Assembly (NCBI GenBank): GCA_017547285.1
Contig: JAFYQB010000148.1
Span: forward strand, 1-64,000
Source: Clostridia bacterium
GTDB lineage: Bacteria > Bacillota > Clostridia > Christensenellales > Aristaeellaceae
Reading direction: 5' to 3'
DNA length: 64,000 nt
Positions within the stretch are counted from its first letter, which is position 1. Each line of letters begins with the position of its first letter. A program made the position numbers and the translations under genes. Positions 54,908 through 63,017 of this stretch are shown in pieces. The notes under the pieces were generated by a model. That model was given only the letters and a program-made list of their open reading frames with translations. It did not search any database and was not told the origin of the DNA.

Positions 54908-54945
54908 AATAAAGAACGTCCTGTCTGTCCAGGACGTTCTTTATT
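54908..54945 (-). terminator. Terminator of the motor operon
   Basis: AATAAAGAACGTCCTG (54908-54923) pairs perfectly with CAGGACGTTCTTTATT (54930-54945). The left arm in minus orientation contains the stop codon of the last operon gene. Confidence 0.85.
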
Positions 54946-55432
54946 ATTGACCGTAAACAGTTTTGATATTACCTGAAACACCCCACAAATAGTAAGTCAC
55001 GATCATTTCGCGAATTGGATGTGAATTTTTAGGAGACAGAATCTGAACCTGAACTTCGCCTTCTGATTTCAAATCAAGCGATTTGACTTTCAAATCTGCC
55101 TTCTGTAAAATGTCGCCAGACTGAGGAACAACCTGAAGTTCAATCATATCAATAGGTACAAGACAGTTATTGCGAATACGAACCGTATATGTAAGGTATA
55201 CATATTCGGAAGCATCCGACCACTCATGAGGTTTCTGAAACAAAGTGCCATAGAAGGTTTGCTGCTCTATAGATTGTTTCAGCAAATCCAATTCAGTTTG
55301 CTCCACAGGAATTCCCTGCGCCTGAATATCTACTATCTGTACTTCAGCTGTCAAAAACAGATAACCCACACAACCTGCCATCACCAACAGCAGCGATACA
55401 GACATAATGGCTGCAAATTTAAGTGCTCGCAT
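54944..55432 (-). CDS. Membrane-anchored protein of unknown function, third gene of motor operon
   Basis: This 162-residue protein is not recognised. It has one N-terminal hydrophobic segment (about residues 5-28, SVSLLLVMAGCVGYLFLTAE), which is either a membrane anchor or a signal with MAGC as a poor lipobox. The rest is outside the membrane: a polar helical stretch (QTELDLLKQSIEQQTFYG) and a beta-rich domain with YVYLTYTVRIRNNCLVPIDMIELQVVP. It lies 16 bases after the OmpA-like gene and before a strong terminator, so it is made with the motor proteins and may work with them at the cell surface. Confidence 0.8.
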   Translation of the reverse strand: MRALKFAAIMSVSLLLVMAGCVGYLFLTAEVQIVDIQAQGIPVEQTELDLLKQSIEQQTFYGTLFQKPHEWSDASEYVYLTYTVRIRNNCLVPIDMIELQVVPQSGDILQKADLKVKSLDLKSEGEVQVQILSPKNSHPIREMIVTYYLWGVSGNIKTVYGQ

Positions 55433-55448
55433 TGTCTTTCACCGTCCT

Positions 55449-56591
55449 TCAACGATTATCACTGCTCAATATACGCCTGATTTCATCAATCATTTCAGAA
55501 TCCTTCATGCGGAATTTAAATTCCACTCTGCGCGACGCATCCATATTTACTGTTCCATCCGCATGATAGATAGGATCTGAATAGCTTTTGCCTTTGGCTG
55601 TCAAAATATCGCGCAGCCTGTCCAAATGTGTTTTACTCAACTGCGGCATTTCAAGGCAATAAGTTGCTACACTGAGAGCGCGTTCCTGTGACAGCTCCAG
55701 ATTCACCAAATAGGTACCGGAAGTATCGGTATGGCCTTCAATGATAATTTCTCCCAAATAATCATCGTATTCAGGCTGAAGAAGAACCCCCAGATAAACC
55801 GGAATAAATCGTTCAAGAAACTCCCGTCCGCCTTCTTTGATTGCATTTTTGCCAACATCAAAAAATACTGCGCTTTCCAGAACAATATCGCCTGTATTAG
55901 CATCAACGCTGGCACGCAAATCCGCATTTGAAAGAGCATCCGTTAGTTCTCTTACTATTTGAGTACGAACACCAACCAGATCATCCAGTTTTTTTTGCTG
56001 AAGTTCCATCGCATTTTGTTGTTCCCCAAGCAGCACAGTAGCATCCGCCAACTCCTGCTGCTTGTTTTCAAGTTCCAGATTTGCAGCATTCAATTCTGCC
56101 TCTTTAACAGCAAGCGACTGCTGAGCGGCAAAAATGATCTTCTGCTGTTCTTCCAGCGTAAGTGTCTGATCCGCAAGCAGTCCCTGCTGCTGTTCAAGTT
56201 GATTCCGTGCACTGGCTAATTCGTTTTCTTTGTCAAGAAGTGCGAGTTGCTGCTGCACCAGTTCAGCCTGCTGTTCTTCCAGCGTAGTCTGCTGAGCAGC
56301 AAGGGTCGTTCTCTGTTCATCCAGTGTGGATTGTTGAGCATTCAGCATAAGCCGCTGCTCCTCAAGTGTGCTTTGCTGCTCAGTCAGCGTATTCTGCTGC
56401 ACAGTAAGCAAAGCACTTTGCTCATCCAGTTCAGCGGTTTTGGTTTCCAGCATCAGAAAATACTGATATACACTGTAACAAAGTACCAGAACAAAAAGCA
56501 GCAGCAATGCAGCCATCATATCCGAATAACTGATCCATGCTGCACCGCCATCAGCTTTGCTGCCACGGCGCAAATAACGTTTGCGGCTCAT
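55449..56591 (-). CDS. MotB/ZorB-like protein with OmpA domain
   Basis: This 380-residue protein has a short basic cytoplasmic start, one membrane helix preceded by WISYSDMMAALLLLFVLVL with Asp24 in the place of the ion-carrying Asp of MotB/ZorB, and a coiled coil of about 165 residues rich in Gln. A C-terminal OmpA/MotB peptidoglycan-binding domain follows (about 235-375), with FFDVGKNAI and IIIEGHTDTSG...LS.ERA. It would anchor an ion-driven motor to the cell wall. It lies 11 bases after the MotA-like gene. It is larger than flagellar MotB because of the coiled coil. Confidence 0.88.
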   Translation of the reverse strand: MSRKRYLRRGSKADGGAAWISYSDMMAALLLLFVLVLCYSVYQYFLMLETKTAELDEQSALLTVQQNTLTEQQSTLEEQRLMLNAQQSTLDEQRTTLAAQQTTLEEQQAELVQQQLALLDKENELASARNQLEQQQGLLADQTLTLEEQQKIIFAAQQSLAVKEAELNAANLELENKQQELADATVLLGEQQNAMELQQKKLDDLVGVRTQIVRELTDALSNADLRASVDANTGDIVLESAVFFDVGKNAIKEGGREFLERFIPVYLGVLLQPEYDDYLGEIIIEGHTDTSGTYLVNLELSQERALSVATYCLEMPQLSKTHLDRLRDILTAKGKSYSDPIYHADGTVNMDASRRVEFKFRMKDSEMIDEIRRILSSDNR

Positions 56592-56602
56592 AGCACCCTC
56601 CT

Positions 56603-57811
56603 TTACTGTACATCAGTTTCTTCCTGCTGCACACCATTCAGTTCAACCGTGAGCAGATCAATTGCAACCTGCATGCGGTTTAATGAATCATTCAGACTCT
56701 CCAGCCGCACAGCAAGATGCTGAGCTTCTTCTTCCGCTGTGGAAATATGTGCATGGCGCTTTACGGTTTCTACCTTCAATTCTTCGCTCAACAATTTAAT
56801 CTGCTCGGCAATATCAGACGTAGACTGGCGAATAATCTCCGCATCTCTCGACATGCACTGTGCGGCTGCCATGGTATTGTGCAAATTTCGCTGCGTGTTT
56901 CTCTGGTCTTCCGTAACAGCAGTGATCACTTTGCTCAGATCGCTCATTTGATCTCCCAACGAAGTATTCATTTGCTGTACAAACTGACCAACAATCCTGC
57001 GAACGCCATCCACCTGTTCCCGTGTTGCACATTTGATGAAGGTATCCAAAGATTGGGTAAGCGGCATCATAGCACGAGATAGTGCCATTTCAAGCGAAGC
57101 AGAAACACGGTTTCCGATAGCATCTGCCATCTGCATCAGCCTGGCATCCTCGTCCTGCTTCTGACAAATCATTTGTACTTCCGGCTGAAGCGGGCGCGGC
57201 ATGGCCTGTTCATAGAAGGAGTCTTCAAAATGATCCAGTGCACGCATTGCTCGGCCTGCTGCCATACGATAGAACATATTAAATAAAAGCGAACAGGCAA
57301 TACCAGCCACAGAGGTAGCAAAGGCAAAACGCATGCCACTCAGCAACTGAGGAATACTTTGAATGGTGCCTTCTGCATTCGAAAAATCCACGCTTGTCAA
57401 TCCCTGCATTAAACCCATAAAGGTTCCCAAAATACCCAGCGAAGTAAGCAGTCCGGGAATCAATTCAGCAAGCTGTGCATGACCAGGTTTATCGATTACT
57501 GTTTCTTCGTTGATATATTCGCGTGTATCGCACGGTATACCACGCAAATCCAACTGTGAAGCATTCAGGAGAAACTGCTGCCATTCATTTCGCAATGAAC
57601 GCCCCAAAAAGCGGTTTTCCCTCCATAAGGGCCTTTCACCTCTGGCCATACTTCTTTCCAATTTGAGTACCGCTCGATTCAAAAGAGCAGCATTGCGCAA
57701 AAGCGGATAAATACACTTGCAGAAGCCAACCAGGGTGACAATAACAATTGCGGCATAAACGGCAATTTCAGATAAATTGGCGGTCAGACTGCTGAGCATT
57801 ACAGATTCCAT
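56603..57811 (-). CDS. MotA/TolQ/ExbB-like (ZorA-like) ion channel protein
   Basis: This 402-residue protein has a first hydrophobic helix at about residues 14-34. A MotA/ExbB channel core follows at about 110-190 (ELIPGLLTSLGILGTFMGLM, then MRFAFATSVAGIACSLLFNMF). The cytoplasmic tail is about 210 residues, largely helical and coiled-coil-like (residues 200-400, many Gln, Glu and Met). Flagellar MotA lacks such a tail; ZorA has one. The frame is open to 57874, but ATG 57811 has AGGAGG six bases upstream. No flagellar or chemotaxis genes are nearby. Confidence 0.86.
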   Translation of the reverse strand: MESVMLSSLTANLSEIAVYAAIVIVTLVGFCKCIYPLLRNAALLNRAVLKLERSMARGERPLWRENRFLGRSLRNEWQQFLLNASQLDLRGIPCDTREYINEETVIDKPGHAQLAELIPGLLTSLGILGTFMGLMQGLTSVDFSNAEGTIQSIPQLLSGMRFAFATSVAGIACSLLFNMFYRMAAGRAMRALDHFEDSFYEQAMPRPLQPEVQMICQKQDEDARLMQMADAIGNRVSASLEMALSRAMMPLTQSLDTFIKCATREQVDGVRRIVGQFVQQMNTSLGDQMSDLSKVITAVTEDQRNTQRNLHNTMAAAQCMSRDAEIIRQSTSDIAEQIKLLSEELKVETVKRHAHISTAEEEAQHLAVRLESLNDSLNRMQVAIDLLTVELNGVQQEETDVQ

Positions 57812-57833: not shown

Positions 57834-57862
57834 AATGATAAATATATACAATTTAATTGTAA
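57834..57862 (-). promoter_or_regulatory. Possible promoter and palindrome upstream of the motor operon
   Basis: A 15-base palindrome TACAATT-T-AATTGTA (57847-57861) overlaps a possible -35 TTACAA (57862-57857), spaced 16 bases from TATCAT (57840-57835) on the minus strand. The promoter match is weak; the palindrome is exact. Confidence 0.4.
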
Positions 57863-57931
57863 CCTTTTTTTCATCTTTTGTAAATACTAATGGAATCAAT
57901 CCGGAATGTACAGCGTTCTTAAACAATGTAA

Positions 57932-57961
57932 AAAGATCCGGAGCTTATGCTCCGGATCTTT
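57932..57961 (-). terminator. Terminator of the hydrogenase operon
   Basis: AAAGATCCGGAGC (57932-57944) pairs perfectly with GCTCCGGATCTTT (57949-57961); TTTTTAC follows on the minus strand. Confidence 0.94.
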
Positions 57962-57973
57962 AGAAGTATGAGC

Positions 57974-59716
57974 TTACTTGTACAGCTCACGCTTGGCGTA
58001 AGTGGTGTGCAGCAGCTCATGAGCCTTGTGGCTGTTGGGCTCGCCAAGGAAATCAGCGTAGATCGCCTTGATTTCGGGGTTCTCGTGGCTCTTGCGGAGG
58101 GTCTTGGACTCGTCCTCAGAGTAGAGAGCCTTGGCACGCTCGGCGCGAATATCCACCCAGTTACGAACCTGAGCGGTAACGATGGGCTGACCACCGCCAT
58201 TGACGCAACCGCCGGGACAACCCATGACCTCGATGAAGTGATAGGTCTTCTCGCCATTCTTGATGCTATCCAGCAGCTCGGCAGCCTTGCCGGTAGAAGA
58301 GCAAACAGCAACGTTCACATCCAGGTCGCCAACCTTTACAGTGGCTTCCTTGATGCCTTCCATGCCGCGAACAGCGTGGAAGTTCACGTCCTTCAGTTCT
58401 TCGCCGGTCAGAACTTCGTAAGCGGTACGCAGGGCAGCTTCCATAACACCGCCGGTTACGCCGAAGATAACGGCAGCGCCGGTGGACTCGCCCATCAGCT
58501 TGTCGAAGTTTTCTTCGGGCAGGTTGGCGAAGTCAATGCCAGCTTCCTTGATCATGCGAGCCAGCTCGCGAGTGGTGATAACCATATCAACATCGGCCAG
58601 ACCGTCGTGACCCAGCTCAGGACGCTTGGCCTCGAACTTCTTGGCGGTACAGGGCATCACAGACACAACAACGATGTCCTTGGGATCTACGCCAGCCTTC
58701 TCGGCATAGTAGGTCTTGATCATCGCGCCGGCCATCTCGTGAGGAGACTTGCAGGAGCTCAGGTTGGGGATGAACTCGGGATAATAGTGCTCGCAGAACT
58801 TGATCCAGCCGGGAGAGCAGCTGGTGATCATGGGCAGGACGCCGCCGTTCTTCACACGGTCGATCAGCTCATAGCCTTCTTCCATGATGGTCAGGTCAGC
58901 AGCAAAGTCAGTGTCGAACACCTTGTCAAAGCCCAGACGCTTCATAGCGGAAACCATCTTGCCGGTTACGCTGGTGCCCATTTCGAAGCCGAATTCCTCG
59001 CCCAGAGCGGCGCGGACAGCGGGAGCGGGCTGCACAACAACATGCTTGGTGGGATCAGCCAGAACGTCCCAAACTTCCTTGGTCTCGTCCTTTTCAGTCA
59101 GAGCGCCTACGGGGCAAACAGCGATACACTGACCGCAGTTGATACAAGCCATGGAGGCCAGATCCTTGTCCCAGGGGCTGGCGATAGCGGTCTTGAAACC
59201 ACGCATCATAGCGCCGATAACGCCGACCTTCTGGTTCTTACAGGCGCCAACGCAGCGACGGCACAGGATACACTTGTTGTTGTCGCGCACGATGGAGGTG
59301 GAAGACAGATCGAGGGGATACTCGTTCTGAGCGCCTGCAAAACGATCGCCGTTTTCTACGCCCAGATCCAGGCACAGCTTCTGCAGTTCGCAATTCTGGC
59401 TGCGGGGGCAGGAGAGGCACTTCTTGTCGTGGTTGCTCAGGATCAGCTCCAGGTTGAGCTTACGGGCAGCACGCACAGCAGGAGTGTTGGTCTTAACAAC
59501 CATGTTGGGGGTTACGGGCAGAACGCAGGCAGCCTGCAGGGTGCGGGCGCCGGTATCAACCACACAGAGACGGCAGTTGCCGGTCTCGTTGATATCCTTC
59601 AGATAGCAGAGCGTGGGGATGTTCACATTGGCCTTGCGAGCAGCTTCCAGCACAGTAGTACCGGCAGGAACCTCAACCTTCACGCCGTCAATTGTAAGCG
59701 GAATCATCTGTTCCAT
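57974..59716 (-). CDS. hydA: [FeFe] hydrogenase catalytic subunit HydA
   Basis: This 580-residue enzyme has an N-terminal [2Fe-2S] domain, a His-Cys cluster region (CLSCPRSQNCELQKLC), two [4Fe-4S] sites (CILCRRCVGACKNQ and CINCGQCIAVCP) and the H-cluster motifs L1 TSCSPGWIKF (near 298), L2 MPCTAKKFE and L3 EVMGCPGGCVNGGGQP (near 500). It makes or splits H2 in the cytoplasm. With HydB and HydC upstream it belongs to the trimeric NAD- and ferredoxin-linked type. It is the last gene of the operon. Confidence 0.97.
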   Translation of the reverse strand: MEQMIPLTIDGVKVEVPAGTTVLEAARKANVNIPTLCYLKDINETGNCRLCVVDTGARTLQAACVLPVTPNMVVKTNTPAVRAARKLNLELILSNHDKKCLSCPRSQNCELQKLCLDLGVENGDRFAGAQNEYPLDLSSTSIVRDNNKCILCRRCVGACKNQKVGVIGAMMRGFKTAIASPWDKDLASMACINCGQCIAVCPVGALTEKDETKEVWDVLADPTKHVVVQPAPAVRAALGEEFGFEMGTSVTGKMVSAMKRLGFDKVFDTDFAADLTIMEEGYELIDRVKNGGVLPMITSCSPGWIKFCEHYYPEFIPNLSSCKSPHEMAGAMIKTYYAEKAGVDPKDIVVVSVMPCTAKKFEAKRPELGHDGLADVDMVITTRELARMIKEAGIDFANLPEENFDKLMGESTGAAVIFGVTGGVMEAALRTAYEVLTGEELKDVNFHAVRGMEGIKEATVKVGDLDVNVAVCSSTGKAAELLDSIKNGEKTYHFIEVMGCPGGCVNGGGQPIVTAQVRNWVDIRAERAKALYSEDESKTLRKSHENPEIKAIYADFLGEPNSHKAHELLHTTYAKRELYK

Positions 59717-59735
59717 GTTCGTTCCTCCTTAGGCG

Positions 59736-61529
59736 TTAGTTCTTAACGATGGCGCCAAAGCGGCACTTCTCCATGCAGGAACCGCACTTGATACACTTGG
59801 TGGTATCGATGTGGTGCATTTCCTTCACGCTGCCGGTGATGGCGTTAACGGGGCAGACACGGGCACAAGCGGTACAGCCGCGGCACTTGTCAGTGATCTC
59901 GTAGTTGAGCAGCTTCTGGCAGTGATGCGCGGGGCAACGCTTCTCCTTGATGTGAGCCTCATACTCGCTGCGGAAGTACTTGAGGGTGGACAGAACGGGG
60001 TTGGGAGCAGTCTGACCCAGGCCGCACAGAGCGGTGGACTTGATGTTGTTGGCCAGAGCTTCCAGCTTTTCAATATCGCCTTCCTCGCCCTTACCCTCGG
60101 TGATGCGTTCCAGGATCTCCAGCATGCGCTTGGTGCCGATACGGCAGGGAGTGCACTTGCCGCAGCTTTCGTCTACGGTGAAGTCCAGGAAGAAACGGGC
60201 GATGTCAACCATACAGTTGTCTTCGTCCATAACGATCATACCGCCGGAACCCATCATGGAGCCGATGGAGGTCAGGGAGTCGTAGTCGATGGCGATGTCG
60301 AGGTGCTCAGCGGGGATGCAGCCGCCGGAGGGACCACCGGTCTGAACAGCCTTAAAGGCCTTGCCGTTGGGAATGCCGCCGCCGATCTTATAGATAACGT
60401 CGCGCAGGGGGGTGCCCATGGGAACTTCGACCAGACCAGTATTGTTGATCTTGCCGCCCAGAGCGAATACCTTGGTACCGCTGTTGCCAGGAGTACCGAT
60501 GCTCTTGAACCAATCAGCGCCCTTGTTGATAATAAGGGGGATGTTGGCGTAGGTTTCAACGTTGTTGATGTTGCTGGGCTTGTCGAACAGACCACGCACA
60601 GCGGGGAACGGAGGCTTGGGAGTGGGCTCGCCGCGGCCGCCTTCGATGGAACGCATCAGAGCGGTTTCTTCGCCGCAGACGAAGGCGCCGGCGCCCAGAC
60701 GGATGTACATATCAAAGTCGAAGCCGGAACCAAAAATGTTCTTGCCCAGCAGGCCGTATTCGCGGGCCTGATCGATAGCCAGCTGCAGACGCTTAACAGC
60801 GATGGGATACTCGGCACGAACGTACACATAGCCTTCGGTAGCGCCGATGGCGTAGCCGCCGATTGCCATAGCTTCGATGACGGAGTGGGGATCGCCTTCC
60901 AGGATAGAGCGGTCCATGAACGCGCCGGGATCGCCCTCGTCAGCGTTACAGATGATGTACTTCTGGTCAGCCTTGGAAGCAGCCGCGAACTGCCACTTCT
61001 TGCCGGTGGGGAAACCGCCGCCGCCACGACCGCGCAGACCGGAGTCGATCATTTCCTTGATAACGTCTTCAGGCTTCCACTCGGTCAGAACCTTAGCCAG
61101 AGCCTTGTAGCCGTCAAAGGCGATGTATTCATCAATGTTCTCAGGGTCAATAACGCCGCAGTTGCGAAGAGCAAGACGCATCTGGGGACGGTAGAAATCG
61201 ATGTTTTCCAGAGTGGCATGCTGTTCTTCCTCAGCAGCCTTCTCCTTGTAAACGAGGTGCTGAACGGTACGGCCCTTGAGCAGATGCTCGGAGACGATTT
61301 CGTCAACATCCTCAACGCGGATGCGGCTGTAGAAAGTGCCTTCGGGATATACAATAACAACAGGGCCAGCTTCGCAAAGACCGAAGCAGCCGGTGCGGAT
61401 AACCTTAACTTCCTTGTCCAGACCGTTCTTGGCAATCTGTTCTTCAAAACGGGCAATCAGTTCAGCAGAGCCGCTCGAAGTACAGCCAGTACCGCCGCAG
61501 ACAAGTACATGTGCGCGAAAAAGATCCAT
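59736..61529 (-). CDS. hydB: NuoF-like hydrogenase subunit HydB
   Basis: This 597-residue subunit has three parts. First is an N-terminal thioredoxin-like [2Fe-2S] domain (CGGTGCTSSG, CFGLCEAGP). Second is a NuoF core with FMN and NADH sites (LRGRGGGGFPTGKKW, CNADEGDPGAFMDR) and the [4Fe-4S] motif ESCGKCTPCRIG. Third is a C-terminal pair of [4Fe-4S] clusters (CRGCTACARVCP, CIKCGSCMEKC). It passes electrons among NADH, ferredoxin and HydA. GGAGGAA precedes the ATG; hydA starts 19 bases after its stop. Confidence 0.96.
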   Translation of the reverse strand: MDLFRAHVLVCGGTGCTSSGSAELIARFEEQIAKNGLDKEVKVIRTGCFGLCEAGPVVIVYPEGTFYSRIRVEDVDEIVSEHLLKGRTVQHLVYKEKAAEEEQHATLENIDFYRPQMRLALRNCGVIDPENIDEYIAFDGYKALAKVLTEWKPEDVIKEMIDSGLRGRGGGGFPTGKKWQFAAASKADQKYIICNADEGDPGAFMDRSILEGDPHSVIEAMAIGGYAIGATEGYVYVRAEYPIAVKRLQLAIDQAREYGLLGKNIFGSGFDFDMYIRLGAGAFVCGEETALMRSIEGGRGEPTPKPPFPAVRGLFDKPSNINNVETYANIPLIINKGADWFKSIGTPGNSGTKVFALGGKINNTGLVEVPMGTPLRDVIYKIGGGIPNGKAFKAVQTGGPSGGCIPAEHLDIAIDYDSLTSIGSMMGSGGMIVMDEDNCMVDIARFFLDFTVDESCGKCTPCRIGTKRMLEILERITEGKGEEGDIEKLEALANNIKSTALCGLGQTAPNPVLSTLKYFRSEYEAHIKEKRCPAHHCQKLLNYEITDKCRGCTACARVCPVNAITGSVKEMHHIDTTKCIKCGSCMEKCRFGAIVKN

Positions 61530-61550
61530 GTTCGTTCCTCCTTAGCAGTC

Positions 61551-61925
61551 TTATTTGCCTTCGGCAGCGCCGATGGTATATTCCTGAACAGGACGGCCGT
61601 TGACGATGTGCTCGGCAACAATGCGGGAAACCATATCAGGATTGACCTTTACGTAGGTAACCTTTTCCTTGCCGGGCATGATCACGTCCAGCATGGGCTC
61701 CAGACGGCACATGCCGATGCAGCCGGTCTGAGAAACGGTCACGTTCTGCAGATTGCGCTTCTGGACTTCTTCCACGAACTTGAGCATTACAGGACGGGCA
61801 CCGGCAGCGATGCCGCAGGTAGCCATGCCGACCACGATACGCACAGCGTCGTCGCCTTCCTTGCGCATAGCCACCTTTTCAAGAGTCTTTGCGCGGATCG
61901 CTTCCAATTCAGCCAGAGACTTCAT
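61551..61925 (-). CDS. Thioredoxin-like [2Fe-2S] ferredoxin domain protein
   Basis: This 124-residue protein has the four-cysteine pattern of thioredoxin-like [2Fe-2S] domains: ATCGIAAGA near residue 37 and QTGCIGMCRLEP near 70. It resembles the N-terminal domain of HydB as a free protein and is a common member of hydrogenase operons of this type, where it probably carries electrons. The first 30 residues are a charged helix (ELEAIRAKTLEKVAMRKEG). It starts three bases after the HATPase gene. Confidence 0.92.
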   Translation of the reverse strand: MKSLAELEAIRAKTLEKVAMRKEGDDAVRIVVGMATCGIAAGARPVMLKFVEEVQKRNLQNVTVSQTGCIGMCRLEPMLDVIMPGKEKVTYVKVNPDMVSRIVAEHIVNGRPVQEYTIGAAEGK

Positions 61926-61928
61926 AAA

Positions 61929-62477
61929 TCAGGACACCTCCAAAATCGGTTTGAATTCTTCTTCGATGCTTTCCTTCATCCAGGCAATCACATCCGGCTC
62001 GTTCAGCGGCACGCCGCCAAGAACTTCACGCAGCTGGCGGGTGTCAAAACTCGCTTCCGCAGTCGGAGAAGTTGCCTGAAACAGAAATTCGGGTTGATCA
62101 GGATTGAGCATGACCAGTGTAAGCAGCGAATCGCAAATATCCCCCATGGGAATACAATCGATGTTTCGGGTATCAAAGCTGGCGTGTATAGTAGTACCGA
62201 CACCCACTTCACTTTCTATGCCAAAGTCTCCCCCGCACATTTCCGCGCTCTGCTTCAGCATCGGAATTCCCAGACCAACCTTGCGGGTGGTTCGGGACGT
62301 AGTAAAGGGATCCGTAACACGGGAAAGGAATTCAGGCGTCATGCCGCAGCCATCATCCTGAACGGAAAAAACAAGCTTGCCGTTTCCGTCCATTACAAAA
62401 GCAACGGCCACCAGTTTCGCTTTCGCTTTGATACTGTTCTGGGCAATATCCAGAACATGCATGCTCAGATCACGCAT
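61929..62477 (-). CDS. HATPase-domain (histidine-kinase-like ATPase) protein
   Basis: This 182-residue protein has a GHKL ATPase domain (about residues 1-105): N box DIAQNSIKAKA, G1 DDGCGM, and GLGIPMLKQSAEMCGG as G2. There is no sensor, dimerisation helix or phosphorylatable His, so it is not a full sensor kinase. The C-terminal 75 residues are unassigned. It is a regular but unexplained member of HydABC-type operons, possibly regulating or assembling the complex. It lies three bases after hydC. Confidence 0.88.
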   Translation of the reverse strand: MRDLSMHVLDIAQNSIKAKAKLVAVAFVMDGNGKLVFSVQDDGCGMTPEFLSRVTDPFTTSRTTRKVGLGIPMLKQSAEMCGGDFGIESEVGVGTTIHASFDTRNIDCIPMGDICDSLLTLVMLNPDQPEFLFQATSPTAEASFDTRQLREVLGGVPLNEPDVIAWMKESIEEEFKPILEVS

Positions 62478-62480
62478 GGT

Positions 62481-62954
62481 TTAAGAAGCCTTGTACTTGG
62501 CGATGATAGCGGGAACTTCAGCTTCCGTCAGACGACCATAGACATCATCATTGATCATCATAACAGGAGCCAGACCGCAGGCGCCCAGGCAACGGGTAGC
62601 CTGAACGGTGAACAGACCATCAGCAGTGGTCTGACCAGGCTGAATGCCCAGTTCGGAGCACAGCTTGTCCAGCACCTTCTGGGAATTCTTTACGTAGCAG
62701 GCAGTGCCGAGGCAAACGCCGGCCACATACTGACCCTTGGGCTGCAGAGAGAACTGGGAATAGAAGGTGGCAACGCCGTAAACCTCGCTCAGGGTAACGC
62801 CGAGGCCTTCGGCAATGATCTTCTGAACGTCCTCGGATACGCAGCCGAAGATGTTCTGTGCTTCCTGCAGCACAGGCATCAGCGCACCCTTTTGCTCCTT
62901 ATGAGCCTTGATGACTTCCGCCAGCTTTTCATATTTTTCGTTATGATTGGACAT
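62481..62954 (-). CDS. hydC: NuoE-like hydrogenase subunit HydC
   Basis: This 157-residue subunit has a helical N-terminal half with LMPVLQEAQNIFGCVSEDV and a thioredoxin-like [2Fe-2S] domain with CLGTACYVKN and CLGACGLAP, the NuoE cysteine pattern. It completes the HydABC electron-bifurcating complex. GGAGGAGG lies upstream of the ATG. It is the first gene of the operon. Confidence 0.96.
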   Translation of the reverse strand: MSNHNEKYEKLAEVIKAHKEQKGALMPVLQEAQNIFGCVSEDVQKIIAEGLGVTLSEVYGVATFYSQFSLQPKGQYVAGVCLGTACYVKNSQKVLDKLCSELGIQPGQTTADGLFTVQATRCLGACGLAPVMMINDDVYGRLTEAEVPAIIAKYKAS

Positions 62955-63017
62955 GGCAGTCTGAGACCTCCTCCATTATAGTTACAGACGAAATGTACAT
63001 AGGTACACATCGTTTAT

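Follow-up and report, generated by a model that had tools for sequence, protein, structure and literature searches.

What does a ZorAB-type motor do in a cell where the nucleases that it recruits in the Zorya defence systems are not found beside it? The question is raised by a three-gene operon (A-B-C) in the stretch of 64,000 nucleotides analysed here (the window), which corresponds to contig C145 of the 3.04-Mb draft genome G000. The analysis suggests that Candidatus Limiplasma and its family have inherited a ZorAB pair which is accompanied by a small surface protein in place of DNA-cutting partners, and that this set of proteins serves cell-wall work. On balance we consider it somewhat probable that a motor of the ZorAB clade is core envelope equipment of this family of non-flagellated, single-membrane gut Clostridia, and not a Zorya defence system.

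Organization of the operon

The three genes (Table 1) stand alone between a [FeFe]-hydrogenase-type gene and a NagA-like gene. They are separated by gaps of 11 bases (A-B) and 16 bases (B-C), and each is preceded by a Shine-Dalgarno-like sequence. The hairpin behind C has a folding energy of -25 kcal/mol (z = -6.9), and none of 200 shuffled sequences was equally stable. The coordinates, gaps and terminator that the initial annotation had given for a minus-strand three-gene unit were all borne out. At the other end, the inverted repeat with its T-run forms the 5' boundary of the operon. Eight promoter-like sites of the type listed were found as compared to 5.4 expected, and the one nearest to A is barely above chance. 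A chance origin of the A-B-C arrangement is ruled out by its conservation across dozens of genera.

Table 1. Features of the A-B-C operon and its boundaries (positions in the window)
Feature	Position	Strand	Description
Gene A	56603..57811	-	402 aa; ZorA-like MotA/TolQ/ExbB ring subunit
Gene B	55449..56591	-	380 aa; ZorB-like axle subunit
Gene C	54944..55432	-	162 aa; family-specific; membrane helix and beta-sandwich (predicted)
Terminator-like hairpin, 16 pairs	54908..54945	-	overlaps the stop codon of C
Promoter-like TTTACA-17-TACAAT	57856..57884	-	upstream of A; weak
Inverted repeat and T-run	57932..57963	-	closes the upstream [FeFe]-hydrogenase-type gene; read by eye

Upstream of the operon, the plus strand carries two long open frames of 599 and 1056 amino acids (57947-59746 and 59811-62981), antisense to hydrogenase/NuoF-type genes, which are almost certainly codon-bias artefacts.

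Subunits A and B resemble ZorA and ZorB

Gene A matches the Pfam family MotA_ExbB (3.7e-7), and gene B matches OmpA (6.6e-11) and, weakly, MotB_plug. Hydropathy indicates three membrane helices in A (about residues 16-34, 117-138 and 162-180) and one each in B (20-38) and C. Protein A continues in a cytoplasmic tail of ca. 218 residues, with a range of 196-353 among unfused relatives. In one relative (genome G020, L055:9486-11651) A and B form one open frame of 722 amino acids, which reflects either a genuine fusion of the two genes or a faulty assembly. Thr166-Ser167 of A and Asp24 in the membrane helix of B do not vary among the 47 family members compared. The same applies to His287, Asp289, Asn297 and Arg304 of the OmpA-like domain of B (208-375), which is a predicted peptidoglycan-binding domain. 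In Zorya, the membrane Asp packs against a ring of Ser/Thr residues and the OmpA domain binds peptidoglycan (PMC11890865); since the invariant residues match these roles, the motor appears to be intact at the residue level. The initial annotation had already described a MotA/ExbB protein with a long tail and a MotB/OmpA protein with Asp24 at the membrane, which agrees with the domain matches, hydropathy and invariance found here. A feature beyond that description is a linker of ca. 160 residues in B (about 45-205), rich in Q, E, L and A and coiled-coil-like, between the membrane helix and the OmpA domain.

With PADLOC profiles, A is recognized as ZorA1 (5.6e-19) and B as ZorB1 (7.7e-69). The best matches of the two proteins in the PDB are the Zorya structures 8vvn, 8qyy and 8vvi; among solved structures, A matches ZorA 8vvn with 4e-18 and B matches ZorB 8qyd with 2.3e-10. 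The NCBIfam models for ZorA and ZorB give matches as well, with scores below their curated cut-offs (ZorA_2, 77.7 bits versus 100; ZorB1, 69.4 versus 400). As references, the phylogenetic trees included MotA/MotB, TolQ and ExbB of E. coli along with bona fide Zorya proteins from E. coli, Klebsiella and Pseudomonas plasmids. The A proteins of the family form a clade of their own (UFBoot 98), and MotA, TolQ and ExbB fall outside the ZorA-like set (UFBoot 77). The B proteins group with the ZorB proteins of Zorya I and II (UFBoot 98), with E. coli MotB outside this grouping; they are nearest to Zorya I (UFBoot 95) and separate from a second clostridial ZorB-like clade (UFBoot 90-97). Their exact position inside Zorya I is uncertain because of long branches. 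Judged from sequence, trees and key residues, A and B are a ZorAB-type motor outside MotAB, TolQ and ExbB, as had been proposed initially, and homology to 8vvn, 8vvi and 8qyd indicates that it is probably a 5:2 assembly of five A and two B subunits.

A flagellar stator or an energiser of the Tol/Ton type would have the MotA/ExbB and OmpA/MotB_plug domains in common with the pair. Such a role is rejected in view of the trees and of the lack of interacting components: FliG was detected in none of the 60 family genomes searched and Omp85 in none of 40, with 4 and 7 controls detected, respectively. The three membrane helices and long tail of A also speak against it, and we regard this explanation as extremely improbable.

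Distribution, inheritance and missing effectors

The sample comprised 100 related genomes, 60 of the GTDB family and 40 from other families of the order Christensenellales. Nearly all are draft genomes in which a single absence may reflect incompleteness, and the genes in these relatives are open reading frames selected in this analysis. The AB pair is present in 55 of the 60 family genomes, covering about 40 genera, normally as a single copy and in one place each, as compared to one weak match in the 40 genomes from other families. The tree of concatenated A and B correlates with that of RpoB (Mantel 0.83; best of 999 shuffles 0.18) and has 23 of 39 splits in common with it, with one strongly supported conflict. 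Separate A and B trees gave Mantel values of 0.79 and 0.71, with best-of-999 nulls of ca. 0.2. Near-universal presence and congruence with RpoB show core inheritance, unlike that of a defence cassette, and the patchy, horizontally spread distribution typical of defence systems is not what is seen for AB. Searches of plasmids and phages gave distant relatives only, several of which are annotated as Zorya genes.

The neighbours of the AB loci are mostly housekeeping genes. No ZorC, ZorD, ZorE, ZorF or ZorG occurs among the PADLOC matches listed (25 of the 31 matched families) for 141 neighbour proteins of 44 loci; the matches listed are regulators or isolated proteins (one Cas6, one IetA/AAA-like). 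In positive controls from other Clostridia, the same library finds ZorC and ZorD beside ZorAB (L288, L289) and ZorE (L296). The initial statement that the operon has no known effector thus holds for the neighbour matches listed.

These results bear on the possibility that the operon is a Zorya variant after all, in which ZorAB would detect an incoming phage at the wall, and infection would be stopped by C, by an effector encoded elsewhere or by ion leakage alone. Such a variant would be in line with the kinship described above, the nearest relatives by both sequence and tree being Zorya ZorA and ZorB, and with conservation of the A tail, which Zorya needs for defence (PMC11890865). Moreover, PADLOC reports a Zorya III with other accessory genes (PMC8565338). 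It is opposed by the vertical inheritance, single copy number and near-universality of AB in about 40 genera, by the housekeeping nature of most neighbours, and by the predicted location of C outside the cell, which is the wrong side for a DNA-targeting effector. An EH_Signature protein was likewise found in 0 of 60 genomes, but no control genome was matched either. The defence variant that the initial annotation had considered is rejected on the grounds of inheritance and of missing nuclease or helicase partners among the neighbour matches listed, and we assign it a low probability. The linkage of C to an M15 peptidoglycan dipeptidase speaks for the cell-envelope machine, which had been offered beside it.

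Gene C and its link to peptidoglycan

Protein C has no family match in Pfam, PADLOC or NCBIfam. It was found in 49 of the 60 family genomes and in none of the 40 genomes outside the family. The AlphaFold2 model (56 sequences, pLDDT 96.3) consists of an N-terminal membrane helix (residues 2-28) and a predicted extracytoplasmic Ig-like beta-sandwich (30-162). Fold searches returned generic beta-sandwiches (best Foldseek match 5bxg, 3.7e-4; Z ≤ 8.4), and a search of the C profile against PDB sequences returned nothing. Since the fold matches are common beta-sandwiches, no function is read from the fold.

The genomic context of C is more informative. In two loci C is fused to a Peptidase_M15 domain (L054, 1.8e-53, and L134), and in 13 further loci C is followed by an M15 gene whose frame overlaps that of C by 8 to 55 bases. 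M15 genes make up 19 of the 1970 genes in the loci, and all but one are beside or in C (a duplicate record of one locus included). The linkage is found in one sublineage and one convergent neighbour (L064); this sublineage excludes Limiplasma, which has its M15 gene elsewhere in the genome. Fusion and adjacency link C to peptidoglycan. As the M15 domain of the fusion protein is located behind the N-terminal membrane anchor, it is probably outside the cell, where the wall peptides are.

Several genera also harbor a Cys-rich protein of ca. 270 amino acids near C (cluster k8; L043:2168-2992, L068, L074, L102 and others), which has no Pfam match and resembles a surface or spore-coat protein.

An extracytoplasmic beta-sandwich could also fit a gliding-like motility or secretion motor in which AB would move a component that is secreted or exposed on the surface, with C belonging to a track or adhesin. 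According to PMC11890865, gliding and type 9 secretion rely on 5:2 motors from this superfamily, and the MotA_ExbB gene of the window's genome is its only one. Yet among the genes that recur around the operon in the family loci, none is of the adhesin, outer-membrane or secretion type, the absence of Omp85 weighs against this role as well, and the enzyme that does recur is a peptidoglycan dipeptidase. We consider a motility or secretion motor improbable.

How closely C is tied to AB is a separate issue. Gene C lies behind B in most genera, including the greater part of one of the family's two main clades, on the same strand and with short spacing. The initial annotation had proposed the third gene as a new surface partner of the motor: the conservation behind AB and the predicted outside location of C agree with this, but in about ten genera C is not linked to AB, and one genome of the window's genus (G014) retains C without AB. 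In the latter, the conserved genes that flank the AB site are in place, AB itself is cleanly deleted and C is intact (L089:9187-12096 as compared to L090:5372-10557). Neither of the outcomes that would have overturned the initial proposal, a firm placement of the pair within MotAB or ExbBD or a third gene that is not conserved beside it, was obtained. Furthermore, C was undetected in nine AB-carrying genomes, and the two co-occur in 46 family genomes where ca. 45 are expected, with no association beyond chance. It follows from the loss in G014 and the chance-level co-occurrence that AB is neither essential nor tied to C.

Where C is unlinked in one clade, its slot behind AB is held by T (c3), a membrane-anchored NTF2-like protein without Pfam match, which is present in 72 of the 100 genomes of the order (in G000 at C62:5126-5662), also in genomes that lack AB. 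That T is a version of C was rejected, as the predicted folds differ and T is distributed order-wide without AB. In one clade, a long coiled-coil protein that is anchored in the membrane and has a C-terminal domain (cluster k9; L065:630-2312, L169:10819-12621) is encoded a few genes behind A-B-T, behind an mnmA-like gene.

The separations of C from AB, together with the unrelated T in the same slot, would suit an explanation in which C is an independent envelope protein that happens to lie behind AB, and AB acts alone or with a cytoplasmic partner of the A tail. That C and AB share a strand and lie close together in most genera, including most of one main clade, argues against independence, as does the restriction of both C and the close AB relatives to the family in the order-level sample. 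We regard independence of C as rather unlikely, though a serious alternative.

Proposed function

In our best reading, A-B-C would be an ion motor, anchored to peptidoglycan, by which the cell senses or remodels its wall; C would be the adaptor on the envelope side. For Zorya it has been proposed that wall contact of ZorB opens an ion path and that the ZorA tail then turns and recruits nucleases (PMC11890865). In a corresponding mechanism for A-B-C, the Asp24 helix of B would thread through the A ring and the long extracytoplasmic linker would bring the OmpA-like domain to the peptidoglycan. Binding to the wall, or strain in it, could then open the ion path, upon which A and its cytoplasmic tail would turn relative to the wall. 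The beta-sandwich of C, outside the cell, is a likely adaptor that may relay the state of the motor to wall enzymes, which in one sublineage would be the M15 D-Ala-D-Ala dipeptidase encoded beside or fused to C. The longer linker of B could place the OmpA domain further from the membrane, which would suit a thicker wall. Conservation of the A tail even though nucleases are absent leaves room for a cytoplasmic partner. What the sequences show is kinship to ZorA and ZorB, conserved ion-path and OmpA residues, vertical inheritance and the linkage of C to M15; the passage of ions, attachment to peptidoglycan, interactions of C with AB or M15 and the function in the cell are what we infer.

A wider proposal, advanced tentatively as a possibility short of probable, is that a Zorya-clade motor has become, or has always been, a core wall machine of this monoderm Clostridia family: anchored to peptidoglycan, it would sense or act on the wall and regulate peptidoglycan hydrolases via a membrane beta-sandwich adaptor. 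It would then be the single-membrane equivalent of Tol-Pal, and a root or an offshoot of Zorya outside defence. If the wall role is true, single-membrane bacteria own an ion-powered envelope motor, and the origin of Zorya becomes testable: a wall-sensing motor may have been recruited to defence, or a defence motor may have been domesticated. For experiments, handles are offered by the species that has lost AB naturally and by the fusion of C to M15. For annotation, it is relevant that defence-gene models call such pairs Zorya; a ZorAB match by itself does not mean defence, since the same motor is inherited here like a housekeeping gene without an effector.

Comparison with known systems

Other Clostridia harbor further ZorAB-like pairs, either in operons with a TPR gene (L291-L295, L298, L300) or as bare pairs (L299, L301-L305), which like the operon described here have no recognised nuclease partner and a long linker in B. 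In the TPR operons (for example L291:5761-9384 and L294:6054-9479), AB is followed by a TPR-like protein of ca. 300-325 amino acids, with no PADLOC effector. These pairs differ from those of the family in forming a separate clade (UFBoot 90-100) and in having a TPR-like third gene or none, and no C. In L286:4400-9811 and L287:2744-7996, a ZorAB-like pair is followed by a 402-aa protein and then by genes for PilB-like type IV pilus ATPases; no Zorya effector was seen beside these pairs, which possibly represent a pilus-linked ZorAB setting. A literature search of partial coverage retrieved no description of effectorless ZorAB operons in Clostridia.

The M15 domain that accompanies C in one sublineage, as a fusion or as the next gene, is similar to the VanX-type M15 D-Ala-D-Ala dipeptidases, although it is absent from the window's operon and in the fusion would sit outside, behind a membrane anchor. 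With the TolQ-TolR-Pal and ExbBD systems, A-B-C would share the principle of an energised 5:2 motor serving the envelope, but the cells of the family have a single membrane and lack Omp85, and their AB proteins belong to a different clade.

The closest similarity is to the ZorAB proteins of Zorya I and II, in which the ring protein likewise spans the membrane with three helices and has a long tail, and the axle carries the Asp and an OmpA domain; the B proteins of the family fall inside the Zorya I/II ZorB clade. Unlike Zorya, the operon is devoid of ZorC, ZorD and ZorE, AB is inherited vertically and is nearly universal, and a membrane beta-sandwich gene is found behind AB in the family. The span from the Asp to the EGHT motif of B is also longer, with 191-289 residues in the family as compared to 114 in Klebsiella ZorB1 and 143 in L288. 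A-B-C would thus work like a ZorAB motor and, by the defining effectors and the distribution, is not a Zorya defence system.
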